Positions 9,158-27,887 of a stretch of DNA of 31,989 nt are shown piece after piece. A program made the position numbers and the translations under genes. Under the pieces are notes generated by a model. That model was not told the origin of the DNA, did not search any database, and saw only the letters and a program-made list of their open reading frames with translations. Source of the DNA: a virus. Location: the IMG/VR virus record IMGVR_UViG_3300046001_011626, positions 1 through 31,989 of that record; one strand, given 5' to 3'. The stretch's first letter is position 1. Each line of letters starts with the position of its first letter.

Positions 9158-9804
9158 TCCCGAATCTCCTGCAGCACGACAGAAGGACCTGCCACCAAGC
9201 GCTGCTCGGCAGGCCCCGACAGCACCAAATCCCAGTCGATGACGTCGTCCATGAAATGAACCGGCACGTAAAACGAGCCCTTCCAGGCCAAGGTGCTAAC
9301 CGCGGCCAAAGACGCAGCCGCTGACGCAGCCAGAGAAGGAATGGTGATGCGGCCAGTACGGCTGTCCAGCGTGTAGTTGGCAGCGGACAAAACGGCTCCG
9401 CCCAGAGTGGGCAAGAATCCCGCAGCCATGGGCCGCGTGATCTTGCGGGTCTTAAAGCGCGTAGAAGCAGCGTGCACGTAGCGCTTGTGGAGTTGGTAAA
9501 CGCCGGTGCTGACCTGCGTCATGACACCGTCGGCCACCAGACTGTCCTTGGGGTCTTGCAGCAAAAAGCCGTAGGCGCCGCCTTCCGTGATTTCGTGCAG
9601 AGACTCAACCGCCTGCCACTGGTCAAGACGCAAGGGCACCACGCCCAGCGTGTACTGACGCAGCGTCTGCGTCCAGATGATGTTGATGGACTCATAGCCG
9701 TTGTCCGTGGGCACGCGGGCGTTCAGCCGCAGGTTCTTACCCTTCACGCCGGCCGCCAGCACGCTGCTCGCCAGAATCACGTCGTCAAACACGGTGATCG
9801 CCAT
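9154..9804 (-). CDS. Distal tail protein, DUF2460 family (GTA g12-like)
   Basis: This 216-residue protein forms the ring joining tail tube to baseplate in gene-transfer-agent-like siphoviruses. Family features are the start MAITVFDDVIL, the phrase GYESINIIWTQTLRQYTLG, and later GAYGFLLQDPKD and GSFYVPVHFMDDV. The open frame runs 18 codons further upstream into the tape-measure gene, but ATG 9804 shares a base with that gene's stop (TGATG) and gives the family's usual N-terminus, so it is chosen. The stop overlaps the hub start as ATGA. Ala-rich residues about 165-185 look like a surface loop. Confidence 0.87.
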   Translation of the reverse strand: MAITVFDDVILASSVLAAGVKGKNLRLNARVPTDNGYESINIIWTQTLRQYTLGVVPLRLDQWQAVESLHEITEGGAYGFLLQDPKDSLVADGVMTQVSTGVYQLHKRYVHAASTRFKTRKITRPMAAGFLPTLGGAVLSAANYTLDSRTGRITIPSLAASAAASLAAVSTLAWKGSFYVPVHFMDDVIDWDLVLSGPAEQRLVAGPSVVLQEIRE

Positions 9805-12269
9805 CAGCCGTTCCTTCGCAAGGCTTGCTGCAGTTGGCGGCCCGCAGCGGCGCCCCATTGCTGCGCGGTTTCTCGGGACGAGCCGCTGGGCGGCGACACC
9901 TGCACGGTGACGTAGGTGTTGCCGTGTTGGGCTGAAGATGCCTGTGATGCAGATGCAGCCTGCGGCGTTACGGTACCGCTCTGGGCGCCCATCATCAAAT
10001 ACTGCTTGCCGCCTGCCGCCAGCAACTCGGGCAGCCCGCCTTCGTTGACTTCATAGAGTCCACCCGGCGACACAGGCCCACCAGCAGCGCGCCCTGGTGC
10101 AGTGCCAAAGGCGTTGGTAAGACTCATCATGTTGTCCATTGAATCGCCGGCCATTGAGCTGGCCGCGGCCGCACTGCCCGCCGTTCCAAACAGCGCACCC
10201 GCAGCCATGCCTAGCAGGCCAGTGAGCCCGCCACCAATGCCACCACTGCTACCGCCAGCACTACCGCCGCTAACCCCAAAAGCGAAAGCGATCTGCTGCT
10301 TGATGATGATGCGCGTGATGTCGGCCACGATGGAGTCCGCCAGACCCTTGAAACTGAGCTTGCCCGTGGTGGCAAAAGTGACCAACGCGTCCTCCATGCC
10401 CTGAAAAGCATGGGTCATCGCATTTTCAATAAGCAGGCCAGTATTCGCAGCGCCCTCTTGGTATTTGCGAATGGCTTCTGACGCGCCAAAGATCGCATCC
10501 CGTTGGCGGTTGTAGGACAGCTCGATGATCGACGTGGCGGACGCCGTTTGCATGGCAGCCTGCATAACGGCCTGAGTGAAGGCAGCCGAGGTATCCGCTT
10601 CAGGGTCGAGTTTCTTGAGCCGGTAAATCCGCTCGTCCAAGTCCATCTGAATTTTGCGGGCAGCGGTTTGCTTTTCTACTTCCAGCGTACTTTTGCCCAT
10701 CAGGCCGATCTGGAACAGCGCCTGCGCATTAGCGATGGCGTCACTGCGTGCGCGCTCAGTGGTGGCCAGATCGAACTGGCGCTGCACCGCCATCAAACGG
10801 TTTTGTGAGTCCCCGAGTTGCTTGTTGGCTTCGATCTCGGCAGCGGCTCGCCTTTTCTTGGCCTCGGCAATTTTGTTCCGGCCGTCTTGCCGCTCGACCT
10901 CTTTGTCGGCTTGGTTGATGTAGGCCTGGATAGCAGCGATCTCTTTGTCGTAAGCCGCTTGCACGGCCTGCAAGCTGTCCGCGAGCAGCGCCTGCTTTTT
11001 CTCTTCTGCATCACGCAAAGAAAAGTAGTCAAGGTTGCGGTAATAGTCGAGGTACTGCTGGCGTGTTTGGAGCTGGGTTTTCTCTGCAGCAATGACTTCT
11101 TCTTGATCCTTGAGTTGGCCCTCGAGAATCTTTTTGGCTGGATCGTCTTTGGGGCCGATGTTGGCGTTGCCTAGTTTGGATATGTCGATCTTGCCTTGTG
11201 GCGCAGTTTCAGGTTTTTGCTTGCGGGCGTCTTCAAGCTGCTTGGCCAGCCGGGCACTGAAAAGCTGCTTTTGAAGAATGACATCGATCTCCGAATACAA
11301 GGCCTTGCCCGCTTGCGACGCGGCTCTGAACTCACCTTGGCTAATCAATGCAGCTTGTGACGCGGCGACGCCGATTGTTTTGGCGGTGATCTGCGCGACG
11401 CGGGACACGCCGTCAAAGGCATCCACCACAAAGCCCACCACCTTTGCCGCGCCCTCGGCCCACTCGCGAATAGACCCATCCTTGGCCAAACCATCGATCG
11501 ACTTGCGCACGCCGTCGTTGGCGTTCTGCGATTCAAACAACGCCTTGGTAAAAGCATTCAGAACCGGCACCAACTCGAGGCCGAACTTCTTGAAAATGGC
11601 ATCCGTTGAGACTTTGAGTCTGATCTGGTTTTTCTCCAACTCGTCGGCCGCTTCGGCTTGGGCGCGGGTGACCTTGACCTGCAGGTCGCCAACGTCAGCT
11701 AAGTCCTTCATCACCGGCAGCAAGTTAGCTCCGGCCTTGCCGAGCAAGGTCTGCGCAATGACGGTTTTTTCGACGCCGTCTTGGTAGGTGGCTAGGCGGT
11801 CAGAGATCAGCTTGAAGACCTGATCCGGGCCTTTGCCCTTGAGCTCATCGACCGCGATGCCGATGGCGCTGAAGGCAGCGCTCGTCTTGGCGCCGCCGTT
11901 CTGGGCATCGACGATCGCTTTGCTGAGCTTTTGCAAACCACCGGCCAGTAAATCCATGTCGGTGTTGGAAAGCTTGGCCACCGAGGCCAGACCAGAGAGG
12001 GACTCGACGGCCGCGCCAGTGCGCTCGGACAACTGCTGCAAGCCTGCCGCAGAAGCAATCGCTCCTTCGATTTTTTCTTTGACTTTGTCTACCGTCGCAC
12101 CCAGTGCAAAGCCCAGTCCAATCGCGCCCAGTCCGGCCTTGACGAGTCCAACAGCTTTGTCGATTTGCCGCATACGGTCTTCGGCGATCTGCGCCGCCTT
12201 GCCCATGTCCGATTGGAACTTGGCCAGGTTGGCGGACAGCTCGACAACAACAGATCCCAATGCGGCCAT
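9804..12269 (-). CDS. Tail tape measure protein
   Basis: This 821-residue protein spans the tail lumen and sets tail length. By the usual rule of about 0.15 nm per residue this predicts a tail near 120 nm (inference). The N-terminus (VELSANLAKFQSDMGKA) is the standard opening of lambda-like tape measures. Hydrophobic segments occur near 45-65. Long charged helical stretches (about 350-520) follow. The C-terminal domain (AFQGMEDALVTFATTGKLSFKGLADSI, then a Gly/Ala-rich stretch, then GGLYEVNEGG) matches the lambda tape-measure C-terminal family. It follows the chaperone pair G/GT, which in lambda coats the tape measure. The gap to the chaperone frame is 47 bases with no other gene. Confidence 0.92.
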   Translation of the reverse strand: MAALGSVVVELSANLAKFQSDMGKAAQIAEDRMRQIDKAVGLVKAGLGAIGLGFALGATVDKVKEKIEGAIASAAGLQQLSERTGAAVESLSGLASVAKLSNTDMDLLAGGLQKLSKAIVDAQNGGAKTSAAFSAIGIAVDELKGKGPDQVFKLISDRLATYQDGVEKTVIAQTLLGKAGANLLPVMKDLADVGDLQVKVTRAQAEAADELEKNQIRLKVSTDAIFKKFGLELVPVLNAFTKALFESQNANDGVRKSIDGLAKDGSIREWAEGAAKVVGFVVDAFDGVSRVAQITAKTIGVAASQAALISQGEFRAASQAGKALYSEIDVILQKQLFSARLAKQLEDARKQKPETAPQGKIDISKLGNANIGPKDDPAKKILEGQLKDQEEVIAAEKTQLQTRQQYLDYYRNLDYFSLRDAEEKKQALLADSLQAVQAAYDKEIAAIQAYINQADKEVERQDGRNKIAEAKKRRAAAEIEANKQLGDSQNRLMAVQRQFDLATTERARSDAIANAQALFQIGLMGKSTLEVEKQTAARKIQMDLDERIYRLKKLDPEADTSAAFTQAVMQAAMQTASATSIIELSYNRQRDAIFGASEAIRKYQEGAANTGLLIENAMTHAFQGMEDALVTFATTGKLSFKGLADSIVADITRIIIKQQIAFAFGVSGGSAGGSSGGIGGGLTGLLGMAAGALFGTAGSAAAASSMAGDSMDNMMSLTNAFGTAPGRAAGGPVSPGGLYEVNEGGLPELLAAGGKQYLMMGAQSGTVTPQAASASQASSAQHGNTYVTVQVSPPSGSSRETAQQWGAAAGRQLQQALRRNG

Positions 12270-12316: not shown

Positions 12317-12703
12317 TCAGCCTTCGCGCTGGAACAACTGCTTGATGAGGCGCGACTGCGCATCTGGGTCTGCCAGCAGCGACGGCTGATCTGACCCATC
12401 AGCCCCTTGTAGACGACCTGATCGCCCTGACAGATCTGATCGATGTGAAAAATGCCAAGGAATGAAATCCTCTGGACAGTAGGGTTGGCGCTGACGCTGC
12501 GGGTCACGGTGCAAGTTGGCCAGCGCCGCCAACGCGATACCGTGGCGCTGGTCAGCCAGCTGCTCACCAAACGGTTCCAGCATGGAGTACGCGCGCCACT
12601 CGGTCAACTCCTCGCTGCTGATTTGCGCGAGCAACTGGCGCACCGTCTTGCCCAGAGCCAGCGCCAAGCGGAAATAAAATCGCCGCTCGGGCTGGCGCGT
12701 TAG
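12317..12703 (-). CDS. Tail assembly chaperone T part (DUF4035), made by -1 frameshift
   Basis: This reading frame has no convincing start codon; it begins at the frameshift point (CTA, 12703-12701) and gives 128 residues fused to the C-terminus of the upstream chaperone, 247 residues in total. The sequence FRLALALGKTVRQLL followed by SEELTEWRAY and EDFIPWHF is typical of DUF4035 / phage tail assembly protein T. As in lambda gpGT, the fusion is expected in small amount to link the tape measure to the tail tube subunit during assembly. A TTG at 12667 is the only nearby alternative initiator and has a poor context. The heptamer and hairpin are described separately. Confidence 0.8.
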   Translation of the reverse strand, partial: LTRQPERRFYFRLALALGKTVRQLLAQISSEELTEWRAYSMLEPFGEQLADQRHGIALAALANLHRDPQRQRQPYCPEDFIPWHFSHRSDLSGRSGRLQGADGSDQPSLLADPDAQSRLIKQLFQREG

Positions 12704-12709
12704 TTTTTT
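12657..12709 (-). promoter_or_regulatory. Programmed -1 ribosomal frameshift site with downstream hairpin
   Basis: The minus strand reads GTA AAA AAC TAA at the end of the chaperone gene, so the slippery heptamer A AAA AAC (12709-12703) lies in the correct phase, directly before the stop. Six bases further (12702-12697) begins a hairpin: 12696-12683 pairs with 12671-12657, 14 pairs including one G-U and a single bulged C, with an 11-base loop. The -1 frame after the heptamer is the DUF4035 frame. This is the layout of classical phage G/GT signals. Confidence 0.85.
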
Positions 12710-13059
12710 ACAGCGGCGTCCTGTGCAACCGCGCCGATACCGTTGATGCGCTGCGCTACATCGAAGACTCGCTCCAGCGCCGCAGCTGATTTGAGCGCCA
12801 GGCGCGGAATATCGGCCACGTCAAACAGCCGGCTGTTCGCCTCATCGACCAAGGTGAGCGCCACCAGCTTGGCCCGCAAATTGGTCATGTCGGGCTTACG
12901 CGAGCCGTCGCTGGCAACGGTCATCATGCTCGACTCAAACGCATCGCGGTCAAAGCCGGTCATGGTGCGCACCAGCACGCTGCCGCCCCATTCGGGGACA
13001 TCGACAGCTTCGCTTCTAAGGTCGGCAACTTCGAGGATTTGGTCTCGTGTCAAATTCAT
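12700..13059 (-). CDS. Tail assembly chaperone G
   Basis: This 119-residue cytoplasmic assembly factor lies in the slot of lambda gpG and of the GTA g10 chaperone, between tail tube and tape measure genes. It starts at ATG 13059 after AAGGAAAAACC. The N-terminal region contains VDVPEWGGSVLVRTMTGFDRDAFE, characteristic of phage tail assembly chaperone families whose members regulate tail tube assembly, and a helical C-terminus (KSAAALERVFDVAQRINGIG). The gene ends GTA AAA AAC TAA, the slippery sequence that allows about a fraction of ribosomes to continue into the DUF4035 frame. Its short, acidic, non-secreted nature agrees with a chaperone that is not part of the virion. Confidence 0.83.
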   Translation of the reverse strand: MNLTRDQILEVADLRSEAVDVPEWGGSVLVRTMTGFDRDAFESSMMTVASDGSRKPDMTNLRAKLVALTLVDEANSRLFDVADIPRLALKSAAALERVFDVAQRINGIGAVAQDAAVKN

Positions 13060-13110
13060 GATGGTTTTTCCTTAAAGTTCAGCTTTGCAATTCAGTTTTA
13101 AAGCCCAGTC

Positions 13111-13761
13111 TTACAGCCCACTGATAGCACCCGTGATGCGCAGATCTACCGAGGTCTTAGCGACGGCATCGACCCCGCCGCCCAAGCTGAATTTCTTAAC
13201 GTAGGCAAAGAAGGTGATGACGCCCCCGTTTGGCAAGGTCAGCTTGAAATTGCTCAGCACACCCGATGATTGGCGGGCGCGCAGCGCGATGTGGCCAGCG
13301 TTGGCGCTGTCGTAATCGATCTCGAACGTGAACTGACCGGGGTCACTCAAGCCGAGTCGGAACTCTTTTGCAGTGCTGTCGAGGTTGGTGACATCAATCT
13401 CAGAAGCGGCACCATCAAAGCCGCTGAACGTACGGACGTTGGCGATATTGGTAAACACCGATGACGTCGCCGTAGAGGCCCCAGCACCGGCTGCCGTGAT
13501 GGTCTTACCGGTGGTGTCGATGTTGATGGCAAACGTGTTCGTGGTGATGTTGCGAACACTCACGGATTGGCCGTTCAACGTCGCAGCATCCGTGCCGGTC
13601 AATCCAGCCAAGGTGACGACGTCGCCGTTGGCCAAGCCGTGCGCCGCGCAGGTCAAGATGGTCGGATTGCCCAGGGCGATCGCTGTCAGTGTTTTAGCGG
13701 TACCCGAGCCGGTGCCGATGGCGATGACGCTGCCTTGGGCAGAAATTGCAGAGGAAGGCAT
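13111..13761 (-). CDS. Major tail tube protein
   Basis: This 216-residue structural subunit stacks in rings to form the tail tube. The C-terminal half (EIDVTNLDSTAKEFRLGLSD, GQFTFEIDYDS, FFAYVKKFSLGGGVDAVAKTSV) is typical of lambda V-like / TTP tube proteins. Residues about 25-90 form an inserted domain (NPTILTCAAHGLANGDVVTLAG and NTFAIN) of the type often labelled FCCH-like in phage proteins, probably displayed on the tail surface. The gene is followed by the chaperone pair as in lambda. AAAGGAAACC precedes ATG 13761. The 133 bases upstream have a short T-rich run but only a three-pair potential stem, so no terminator is called. Confidence 0.82.
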   Translation of the reverse strand: MPSSAISAQGSVIAIGTGSGTAKTLTAIALGNPTILTCAAHGLANGDVVTLAGLTGTDAATLNGQSVSVRNITTNTFAINIDTTGKTITAAGAGASTATSSVFTNIANVRTFSGFDGAASEIDVTNLDSTAKEFRLGLSDPGQFTFEIDYDSANAGHIALRARQSSGVLSNFKLTLPNGGVITFFAYVKKFSLGGGVDAVAKTSVDLRITGAISGL

Positions 13762-24674: not shown

Positions 24675-25520
24675 ATGTTTGATTGGTTTAAGAAGAAATC
24701 CAGTGCAGCCACCTTCCTTATTGGTGGTGCTGAGTATCAGCAATTCAAGGATTTGAGCAAGAAGCCCAGCCTTATCGACCATTTCGCCAGCGTGTGCGCG
24801 GGCATGAGTCAAGTGCCTTTTAACGTAAAGGACGACGTGCAGAGAATGGTTGGCCTTGCACAATCATTAATTTCGGTGACGGGACTAGGAGTGAGCGATC
24901 TCGTCAACTGTGCGAAAACGAACAAATGGGCTTCTATCGAAGATCGACTTAGTCGTGCCAGTGCCTCACTGGGGCCATTGATGGAGAAGGCCCGCCCCGC
25001 GCTTGAGCGCCTTCGCGCATGGGCCGACGCAAACAACCTACCTCCTCTGGCTCAGTTCGACTCGAGCGCCTACCAAATGACGGGATTCCCGCGCGAACTC
25101 ACCGCAATTTTTACTCTTCGACAGCTGCACCTGCCCAATGCCGGATTGACTAGCCTACCAGCCGAACTGTCGGCCCTGCCGGCGCTTGAATCCATTTGCG
25201 TGGATGGCAACAAAATCGATTCATTCCCTTCAGGCATCTTCAGCCTCCTCTCGCTCCGGCGCATCGACGCTGAAGGCAATGAAATTGAGGTAATTCCTGA
25301 CTCGATCGGAGAGGCACAGCATCTGCAGTCCTTCGACCTCGACGGCAACAACCTCCGGTTTGTTTCGCCTGAGATTGCTCGATGCAATTCGTTGAAACGC
25401 GTGTACTTGCGTAAGCAGCGCCACGGGGCTCGGCTCGACTACCGCGACACCCCGTTGTCGGACGACGCGATGAAAGCCTTGGCCTCACTTGACGCCCGCG
25501 GTGTCGACGTACGATTCTAA
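24675..25520 (+). CDS. Leucine-rich-repeat protein, probable cargo gene
   Basis: This 281-residue protein has an N-terminus (MFDWFKKK) that is short and basic, followed by a helical region of unknown type (residues 10-135) with a weakly hydrophobic stretch near 58-78. Residues 148-248 carry about five leucine-rich repeats: LRQLHLPNAGLTSLP, LESICVDGNKIDSFP, LRRIDAEGNEIEVIP, LQSFDLDGNNLRFVS, LKRVYLRK. No secretion signal, kinase, TIR or nuclease motif is visible. It probably acts by binding a protein partner. The AGGA-ATG spacing is seven bases. Its codon use and lower GC look unlike neighbouring phage genes, which suggests recent acquisition; the role in host or phage biology is unknown. Confidence 0.78.
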   Translation: MFDWFKKKSSAATFLIGGAEYQQFKDLSKKPSLIDHFASVCAGMSQVPFNVKDDVQRMVGLAQSLISVTGLGVSDLVNCAKTNKWASIEDRLSRASASLGPLMEKARPALERLRAWADANNLPPLAQFDSSAYQMTGFPRELTAIFTLRQLHLPNAGLTSLPAELSALPALESICVDGNKIDSFPSGIFSLLSLRRIDAEGNEIEVIPDSIGEAQHLQSFDLDGNNLRFVSPEIARCNSLKRVYLRKQRHGARLDYRDTPLSDDAMKALASLDARGVDVRF

Positions 25521-25626: not shown

Positions 25627-26040
25627 ATGCTTGATGTTCGCAAGGAACTCGCCGCGCTTATATGCCACGGCGACGCAGTACTCAGTCCGAGTAAGTGGCT
25701 TGCCGAGGAATCGAGCGATCTGGCCACGCGAATTCCCCACCTCGACGAGATTCCACCCCAAGCGATCCTGCCGCTCGCGAAGCTGGTTGCAGATGGCGAG
25801 TCTGACGCCAGGAAGCTGGCGCTGGCACTCGACATTGATGAGGCCAAACTTGATGAATACTTGGATGCGCTCTGCGAGTTCAAGTATGCGGAGGAAACGT
25901 GGAATGGCTACAAAGCCACATCGGCCGGGGAGCAGGCTTTCGAGGCCGTTGGGCAGAGAATGGTTGCCCGCGAGCTGTTCGAAGTGAAGGCCAGGCTGCA
26001 ACAGCTCGAACAGCTACGCCGACATCTCAACGGTTCCTGA
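25627..26040 (+). CDS. Hypothetical protein, winged-helix-like, paired with LRR gene
   Basis: This 137-residue protein has no named family. The centre (ALPLA- to ARKLALALDIDEAKLDEYLDALCEFKYAEETWNGYKATSAGEQAF, residues about 55-105) has the rhythm of a winged helix in which the wing carries YKATSAGEQ, as in MarR- or restriction-linked regulators. The C-terminal 30 residues (ELFEVKARLQQLEQLRRHL) form a likely coiled coil. ATG 25627 follows AAAGGATAAAGAAAGA. The 106 bases between it and the LRR gene hold no clear promoter. The 3' end overlaps the oppositely directed methyltransferase gene by 27 bases, an unusual convergent overlap. Confidence 0.6.
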   Translation: MLDVRKELAALICHGDAVLSPSKWLAEESSDLATRIPHLDEIPPQAILPLAKLVADGESDARKLALALDIDEAKLDEYLDALCEFKYAEETWNGYKATSAGEQAFEAVGQRMVARELFEVKARLQQLEQLRRHLNGS

Positions 26041-27276
26041 CGCCCGCGCCTGATCATCGAACAGCGCGCCATCCGACTCACGGGTGGCTTGCTTGCCACT
26101 GAAGTCCTGCCAGCGCTTGACGATCACGTCCACGTACTTAGGATCGAGCTCAATGAGCCGGGCACGACGGCCAGACTTTTCGCAGGCGATCAGGGTAGTG
26201 CCAGAGCCGCCAAACGGATCCAGCACGATGTCTCGTGTTTTGCTGCTGTTGCGCACCGCACGCTCCATCAACTCCACCGGCTTCATGGTCGGGTGCAAAT
26301 CGTTTTTGTGCGGCTTCTTGATGTGCCACACATCACCCTGGTCGCGTGCACCGCACCAGTAGTGCTGAGCACCGTCTTTCCAACCGTAGAGGATGGGCTC
26401 GTACTGGCGCTGGTAATCCGCGCGGCCCATGGTGAAGGTGTTCTTGGCCCAGATGATGAAGGTGGACCACTTGCCCCCTGCGGCGCGAAACGCAGCCTGC
26501 AAAGTATCAAGCTCGGATGAACTCATGGCGATGTAGACCGCACCCTTGGTGACGTCCAGAATGTTCTGGCATGCCGACTGCAAGAACGCTCCAAAGTCAG
26601 CGCCCATGTTGTCGTTCAGGATGGGACGGTCCTTGCCGCGCATCTTGTCCTTGGCCGTATTGGCGTAGTTGACGTTGTAGGGCGGATCGGTGGCAGTCAT
26701 GTCCACCAGTTCATCGCCCAGTAGCGCCTTGTAATCTTCTGCCTTGGTGGCGTCGCCACAAAGTAGCTTGTGCTCGCCAAGGACCCAGATTTCGCCGGTT
26801 TGGGAGACGGCTGTCTCGGCCACCTCGGGTGCCTGGTCTTCGTCGGTCAGGCCATCGTTGCTGGGGTCGCCCGCGATGAGCTTGTCCCACTCTTCGGCGG
26901 TAAAACCGGTAAGACCCAGATCAAAGCCAGCTTCCTGCAACTCGGCCAGTTCAAGGCCCAGCAGGTCCTCATCCCAGGAAGCGTTCTCGCCGATCTTGTT
27001 GTCGGCCAGGATCAGTGCCTTGCGCTGAATCTCGGTCAGGTGTTCCATGGCTACGACGGGCACCTCGGACATGCCGAGCTTACGGGCAGCAAGCAGTCGG
27101 CCATGGCCTGCGATGACGTTGTTTTGTCCGTCCACCAGGATGGGTGCACCCCAGCCAAACTCGGTGATGCTGGCCGCGATCTGTGCCACATGGGCGTCCG
27201 AGTGCAGCTTGGCATTTCGGGCGTAAGGGATCAGGGACTCAATCGGCCGGTATTGGATTTTGATGTTGGGCTTCAT
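26014..27276 (-). CDS. ParB-like/DNA methyltransferase fusion
   Basis: This 420-residue protein modifies adenine N6 or cytosine N4 in DNA. Residues 10-100 form a ParB/sulfiredoxin-type domain, with GHGRLLAARKLG (57-68) and the ADNKIGENASWDED phrase. Residues 160-390 are the methyltransferase: motif IV DPPY at 197-200 comes before motif I FGGSGT at 355-360, the order of the beta class (N6/N4 MTase family). The combination is common next to phage terminase blocks and probably protects phage DNA from host restriction. ATG 27276 is chosen because the ParB domain starts there; an intrinsic terminator stands just upstream. No cognate restriction enzyme is visible. Confidence 0.88.
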   Translation of the reverse strand: MKPNIKIQYRPIESLIPYARNAKLHSDAHVAQIAASITEFGWGAPILVDGQNNVIAGHGRLLAARKLGMSEVPVVAMEHLTEIQRKALILADNKIGENASWDEDLLGLELAELQEAGFDLGLTGFTAEEWDKLIAGDPSNDGLTDEDQAPEVAETAVSQTGEIWVLGEHKLLCGDATKAEDYKALLGDELVDMTATDPPYNVNYANTAKDKMRGKDRPILNDNMGADFGAFLQSACQNILDVTKGAVYIAMSSSELDTLQAAFRAAGGKWSTFIIWAKNTFTMGRADYQRQYEPILYGWKDGAQHYWCGARDQGDVWHIKKPHKNDLHPTMKPVELMERAVRNSSKTRDIVLDPFGGSGTTLIACEKSGRRARLIELDPKYVDVIVKRWQDFSGKQATRESDGALFDDQARASGTVEMSA

Positions 27277-27291
27277 GCTGCTTCGGAAACG

Positions 27292-27324
27292 AAAAAGCCC
27301 GCGAGAGACATACTCGTCGCGGGC
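27292..27324 (-). terminator. Intrinsic terminator upstream of methyltransferase
   Basis: On the minus strand GCCCGCGA (27324-27317) pairs with TCGCGGGC (27304-27297), with GAG/CTC pairing above it, a five-base loop and five T residues (27296-27292). It lies 16 bases before the methyltransferase start, so it ends the DUF6362 message or attenuates entry into the methyltransferase gene. Confidence 0.75.
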
Positions 27325-27465
27325 TGTTGAATGGGGGTGGCTGCAAGACACATCTCTCGCAACCGTAGACAAAATGTAAGCGAAATTCCGGTAAAACGCG
27401 ACACGCTCAAATCCGCGTTTTCTCCGCAACAGCCAGCAGGAGCACGCATCGCTTGTATCTGGCAC

Positions 27466-27485
27466 GCAACTACCTGCAACTACCT
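27466..27485. repeat. Perfect tandem 10-base repeat at end of DUF6362 gene
   Basis: GCAACTACCT occurs twice in tandem (27466-27475 and 27476-27485), covering the stop codon of the DUF6362 gene. The 142 bases between it and the terminator at 27324 hold no gene; a promoter for the methyltransferase may lie there but no convincing -35/-10 is seen. Confidence 0.5.
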
Positions 27486-27887
27486 CACCAAACTTCCCCG
27501 CACTAGGTTGCTGGCGACGATGTACATGGCAATTTCCCAGCGGCGCTGCGCAGTGCGTGGTGCGCAGCCGAAGCGTTTGCCGATGTCGTACCAGCGGTAA
27601 CGCGCTGCCCGCATCCAGACCAGGTGGCGCTGCTCGACCTCGAGCCACTGGACCCAGCCCATGACCTCGAGCATGCAGTCCACCTCGGCCGGGGTGGGTG
27701 GAAACCGGTAGACCGGGGCATCGTCACTGGCCATGCGCTCGTAATCGGTTCGCACAATGGTGGGCCAGACGTTGAAGTGACCCTGCACCCGAACAGGCGG
27801 GAGTTTGTGGGCCGTGCGTGAGGCCTGGATGAAATAGTCGGCAACCTCGTCCGCCGACCAGCCGCCCCGTGGTGTTGGTATGGCCAT
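27480..27887 (-). CDS. DUF6362 family protein
   Basis: This 135-residue protein matches DUF6362: GWSADEVADYFIQASRTAHKLPPVRVQGHFNVWPTI at the N-terminus, PPTPAEVDCMLEVMGWVQWLEVEQRHLVWMRA in the middle, then a helix-turn-helix-like WYDIGKRFGCAPRTAQRRWEIAMYIV. The last segment suggests DNA binding, perhaps a late-gene or antitermination regulator, but the family has no proven role. ATG 27887 has an excellent AGGAGGT and is one base after the resolvase stop (TGAGATG). The longer open frame upstream covers the resolvase gene and is rejected. Confidence 0.78.
   Translation of the reverse strand: MAIPTPRGGWSADEVADYFIQASRTAHKLPPVRVQGHFNVWPTIVRTDYERMASDDAPVYRFPPTPAEVDCMLEVMGWVQWLEVEQRHLVWMRAARYRWYDIGKRFGCAPRTAQRRWEIAMYIVASNLVRGSLVR

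Follow-up and report, generated by a model that had tools for sequence, protein, structure and literature searches.

A predicted lambda-type (G-GT) programmed -1 frameshift site in the tail chaperone genes of an uncultured phage

The window analyzed here is itself an IMG/VR virus record of 31,989 bases. The structural genes are encoded on its minus strand, where a tail assembly chaperone gene is flanked by the tail tube/major tail protein and the tape measure in the order major tail protein, G, T, tape measure. The features of the locus, in window coordinates, are as follows.

13111-13761 (-), tail tube protein
13069-13073 (-), Shine-Dalgarno sequence AAGGA of G (duplex with the 16S tail, -6.1 kcal/mol)
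12700-13059 (-), gene G, encoding a 119-aa tail assembly chaperone and ending in TAA (matches PHROG 344 "tail assembly chaperone" at E = 2.7e-23)
12703-12709 (-), slippery heptamer A AAA AAC in the phase of G, read from the sequence and conserved among relatives
12697-12702 (-), six-base spacer opening with the G stop TAA (12702-12700), from sequence and fold
12657-12696 (-), stem-loop of 14 pairs plus 3 inner pairs, from RNAfold, covariation and extra stability
12317-12706 (-), T domain in the -1 frame, 129 aa, opening with the slipped AAA codon (12706-12704) and running to the stop, supported by PF06223, phrog_337 and pN/pS
12665-12667 (-), TTG, the first possible T start, judged unused, with a poor Shine-Dalgarno and within the conserved motif RRFYFRLALALG
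9804-12269 (-), tape measure protein

The Pfam model Phage_TAC_1 matched G weakly and below the cut-off (E = 0.03), and no solved structure matching G by sequence was found. The 3' end of G reads GCT GTA AAA AAC TAA, and the heptamer A AAA AAC sets AAA as the P-site codon and AAC as the A-site codon, in the phase that lets both tRNAs slip back one base at once, just as the original prediction had read it. As a bare string, AAAAAAC is about as frequent in the window as chance predicts (4 copies versus 4.8 expected), so this tally was not taken as evidence by itself. When the phase was considered, the genes of the window contained 21 X XXY YYZ heptamers at 9036 codon positions, and the sole AAAAAAC among them was the one at the G junction.

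The -1 frame entered at this heptamer is 129 codons long, and it matched Pfam Phage_tail_T (PF06223, E = 3.6e-15) and, in PHROG, phrog_337 (E = 5.5e-16). The frame had been proposed to be DUF4035 (protein T); the T domain is supported by PF06223, while no Pfam model named DUF4035 was reported for the -1 frame, and that name was found in the annotation of one Serratia relative. The predicted slippage product joins residues 1 to 118 of G to K-LTRQPERRFYFRLALALGKT… and is 247 aa long in total. Weak structure matches of the T profile were to designed repeat proteins and unrelated enzymes and were taken as chance. Near its C-terminus (about 12385-12420, minus strand), the T domain carries an insertion of ~11 residues, around GRSGRLQGADGSDQ, that is absent from the closest aligned relatives.

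The earlier view that the T frame otherwise lacks a good start agrees with what we observed. Upstream, the T frame is open for 37 codons, none of which is a start codon. The first start, TTG 12667, pairs very poorly with the Shine-Dalgarno partner sequence (-2.1 kcal/mol; the value for G is -6.1 kcal/mol); it was judged unused because of this poor match and its position inside the conserved RRFYFRLALALG. Likewise, ATG, GTG and TTG are absent from the first 12 T codons in 80 of 84 relatives. We calculated pN/pS for the 33 bases before the first possible T start within the window clade, where the G stop directly follows the heptamer, and obtained 0.20 for the -1 frame, compared with 0.89 for the frame of G and 1.60 for the +1 frame. 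Judged from these substitution patterns, the pre-start segment is under purifying selection in the -1 frame only, and it is readable as T only by ribosomes arriving through G. The T extension is thus predicted to have no independent start and to be translated only via the fusion.

Relatives were collected with T, G and an alignment of T as queries, which yielded 166 usable loci, 84 of them non-redundant (first 60 T residues less than 85% alike). At the homologous junction, an in-phase X XXY YYZ heptamer was present in 82 of the 84, a set that omits the loci from the G scan without a canonical heptamer; the background elsewhere in the relatives' G genes was 14 in 7731 codon positions (0.18%). 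Conservation of the heptamer in homologs, proposed earlier as a check, was therefore observed. Most of the 82 sites were AAAAAAC (50) or GGGAAAC (16), and the rest were AAATTTT (4), AAAAAAA (3), AAATTTC (3), CCCTTTC (2), AAATTTA (2), GGGTTTC (1) and GGGAAAT (1). The distance of the G stop from the heptamer varies (0, 3, 33 or 36 nt, among others) and the position of the heptamer is constant, and therefore the slip site, not the stop, is the conserved element. The nearest host-linked relatives of the phage are found in Burkholderiales, and sequenced isolates with the same split and heptamer include those of Collimonas, Polaromonas and Limnohabitans.

When non-redundant relatives were instead collected on the basis of G (n = 49), 42 had a canonical heptamer and 7 did not. 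Homologs with the same two frames and a broken heptamer had been named in the original prediction as evidence against it, and to this small extent they exist; most of the heptamer-less relatives, in turn, have a site where the A-site codon alone can re-pair. The non-canonical junctions that were inspected by eye showed G_GAT_TTC (L024, L035, L039, L081, and also Rhodococcus phage Shagrat, L095), A_TCT_TTC (L026), C_CTA_AAA (L047) and an ATGA overlap (L080), while L042-L045 combine AAAAAAA with an ATGA overlap. The exceptions look like A-site-only slippage or, in one or two, possible re-initiation at ATGA, and they leave the case of the window intact. Sites of the G_GAT_TTC/A_TCT_TTC type recur in this collection (L024, L035, L039, L081, L095 (Shagrat), L026, L031, L038 and L109).

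The ATGA overlaps at the G stop in L042-L045 and L080 would permit coupled re-initiation, and they bear on the best surviving alternative, in which the heptamer has no role and T is a separate protein made by re-initiation just past the G stop (at TTG 12667 or GTG 12643). The T frame does contain start codons, and T is often annotated in GenBank from a downstream start, as in Psymv2, Mcat21 and PHTowN. However, the first T start falls within the conserved RRFYFRLALALG block and has a poor Shine-Dalgarno, the segment upstream of it is under the -1-frame purifying selection described above, and the heptamer is kept in nearly all of the relatives, which together make re-initiation very improbable for the window. 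In the GenBank records named here (Psymv2, L190; Mcat21, L191; PHTowN, L192), a heptamer (AAAAAAC or GGGAAAC) lies upstream of the annotated T start; since the annotated starts are downstream of the heptamer and conserved N-terminal residues are lost, the predicted fusion has been missed in annotation.

A second alternative is transcriptional slippage, in which RNA polymerase would slip along the A6 run and transcripts with an altered A count would fuse the two frames. A-rich transcriptional slippage sites are known in bacteria, and an A6 run is present here, but A6 is short for polymerase slippage. Moreover, many relatives have GGGAAAC, CCCTTTC or GGGTTTC at the junction, where dual tRNA re-pairing is preserved without a long homopolymer. 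Because the A6 run is replaced by GGGAAA or CCCTTT with re-pairing kept and the homopolymer lost, ribosomal slippage is favored, and we regard the transcriptional route as having only a slight chance of being correct. Least credible of all is a single gene broken in two by an assembly error or by a frameshift mutation that inactivated it; this has in its favor only that two frames are required, and it is refuted by conservation, as the identical split and heptamer occur in >80 divergent relatives and sequenced isolates.

Downstream of the heptamer, RNAfold pairs 12696-12683 with 12671-12657 in a stem of 14 pairs with one bulged C (12663), which starts exactly six bases 3' of the heptamer (dG -28.4 kcal/mol for 60 nt), in agreement with the hairpin described in the original prediction. 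Its stability is moderately unusual against dinucleotide shuffles (z about -1.9 to -2.2), and the stem region gave z = -2.7 against a null that preserves the T protein by synonymous shuffling of T-frame codons. With the protein-preserving null in 42 relatives, the first 60 nt past the heptamer codons had a mean z of -1.49; elsewhere in T the means lay between -0.25 and -0.95, and in G between -0.39 and -0.62. As the mean z is strongest directly 3' of the heptamer, extra structure at this place is a trend of the family.

The exact stem shows a narrower distribution. In 14 distinct close relatives, 89.9% of the cells of the window's stem are paired, although most of these relatives have one mismatch. 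Double-change cells numbered 13 versus 5.3 (sd 2.1) in shuffles, with 0 of 500 shuffles reaching 13, and no shuffle reached the covariation score; these values are to be read with the caveat that both arms of the stem encode conserved residues and that the shuffles leave relatedness in. RNAalifold found no consensus stem in 25 diverse relatives, where the window's stem also failed to outscore shuffles, so a family-wide stem was rejected. By these comparisons the exact stem is specific to the clade. Compensatory changes had been suggested as something to look for in homologs, and they occur in the close relatives but not in the wider family; similarly, it is fair to say that the four parts of a classical signal are in agreement, except that the stem is clade-specific. 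We think it quite probable that the stem stimulates slippage.

Taken together, heptamer conservation, selection confined to the -1 frame, the lack of a usable T start, and compensatory stem changes in close relatives uphold the proposed G-GT fusion, and the site is almost certainly, as judged from sequence, a signal for programmed -1 ribosomal frameshifting like that of lambda G-GT. That slippage occurs, how often it does so, that the stem stimulates it, and what the chaperones do are inferred as follows. The majority of ribosomes would terminate at TAA 12702 and produce the 119-aa G, while in a minority the tRNA-Lys and tRNA-Asn on AAA AAC would shift back one base onto AAA AAA, with the stem-loop six bases on slowing the ribosomes during the slip. 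The shifted ribosomes would pass the stop in the -1 frame and produce a G-T fusion of 247 aa. On the model of lambda, G plus fewer GT molecules would coat the tape measure protein, and T would recruit the major tail protein.

The likeness to lambda gpG/gpGT lies in the short chaperone, the -1 extension before the tape measure gene, the PF06223 domain (Minor tail protein T), and the in-phase X XXY YYZ heptamer. The lambda heptamer, GGGAAAG, ends in AAG, whereas the window has AAAAAAC, an immediate stop, and a stem six bases on. G-GT frameshifting is established for lambda, with a product ratio of about 30:1, and for most long-tailed phages (PMC5009743). Since this lambda-type system is known, the novelty implied by the original prediction is not supported, and the site in the window is one more ordinary instance of recoding that is already well known in long-tailed phages.

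Further counterparts of the slip site have been described. Acinetobacter phage vB_AbaS_Loki has AAAAAAC adjoining the chaperone stop at gp12/gp13 (PMC5313236), a likeness at the level of the motif in a phage of another host. Streptomyces phage Dubu gp13/gp14 has a homologous G (50.5%) and T (45%), a joined coding sequence in its annotation, and a stop directly after the heptamer, but the heptamer is GGGAAAC and the host is actinobacterial. In haloarchaeal viruses, G_GGA_AAC and A_AAA_AAC serve G-GT-type fusion (PMC5009743). For an HK97-like tail chaperone cluster, which shares the frameshift fusion but belongs to another lineage than that of the window, the GeneTack survey gives a measured fusion of 6-7%; A_AAA_AAC is among the survey's consensus heptamers and, in its passages on these, is not tied to the chaperone cluster (PMC3711429).

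In E. coli, A_AAA_AAC is far less shift-prone than A_AAA_AAG (PMC5009743), which counts against the site in the window. The final base of the heptamer was C in 72 of the 82 relatives and G in none, a tally that comes from a sample collected by similarity to the window's lineage and shows no cause; in the corresponding G gene of Serratia phage OS31, the heptamer is AAAAAAG. It is conceivable, though we hold it to be rather unlikely, that this lineage settled on C-ending slip sites (AAAAAAC, GGGAAAC) that are weak on E. coli ribosomes and are offset by a lineage-specific stem or by properties of the host tRNA-Asn, with the G:GT ratio set by structure and host tRNA and not by a strongly shifty lysine codon. 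The predominance of C-ending heptamers may be of interest to specialists.

The locus adds a well-supported case of known recoding from an uncultured phage, and it indicates that wrong starts are frequent in the annotation of T in such phages. The slip sites and stems in the family alignment form a natural series with which to measure how phages set the chaperone ratio.

Two further genes of the window were noted. On the strand opposite the structural genes, 24675-25520 (+) encodes a 281-aa leucine-rich-repeat protein (LRR_8, E = 5.9e-09), which is possibly a cargo gene. At 26014-27648 (-) lies a DNA methylase (N6_N4_Mtase, E = 6.7e-28) with a weak N-terminal ParB_N match below the cut-off (E = 0.00045).
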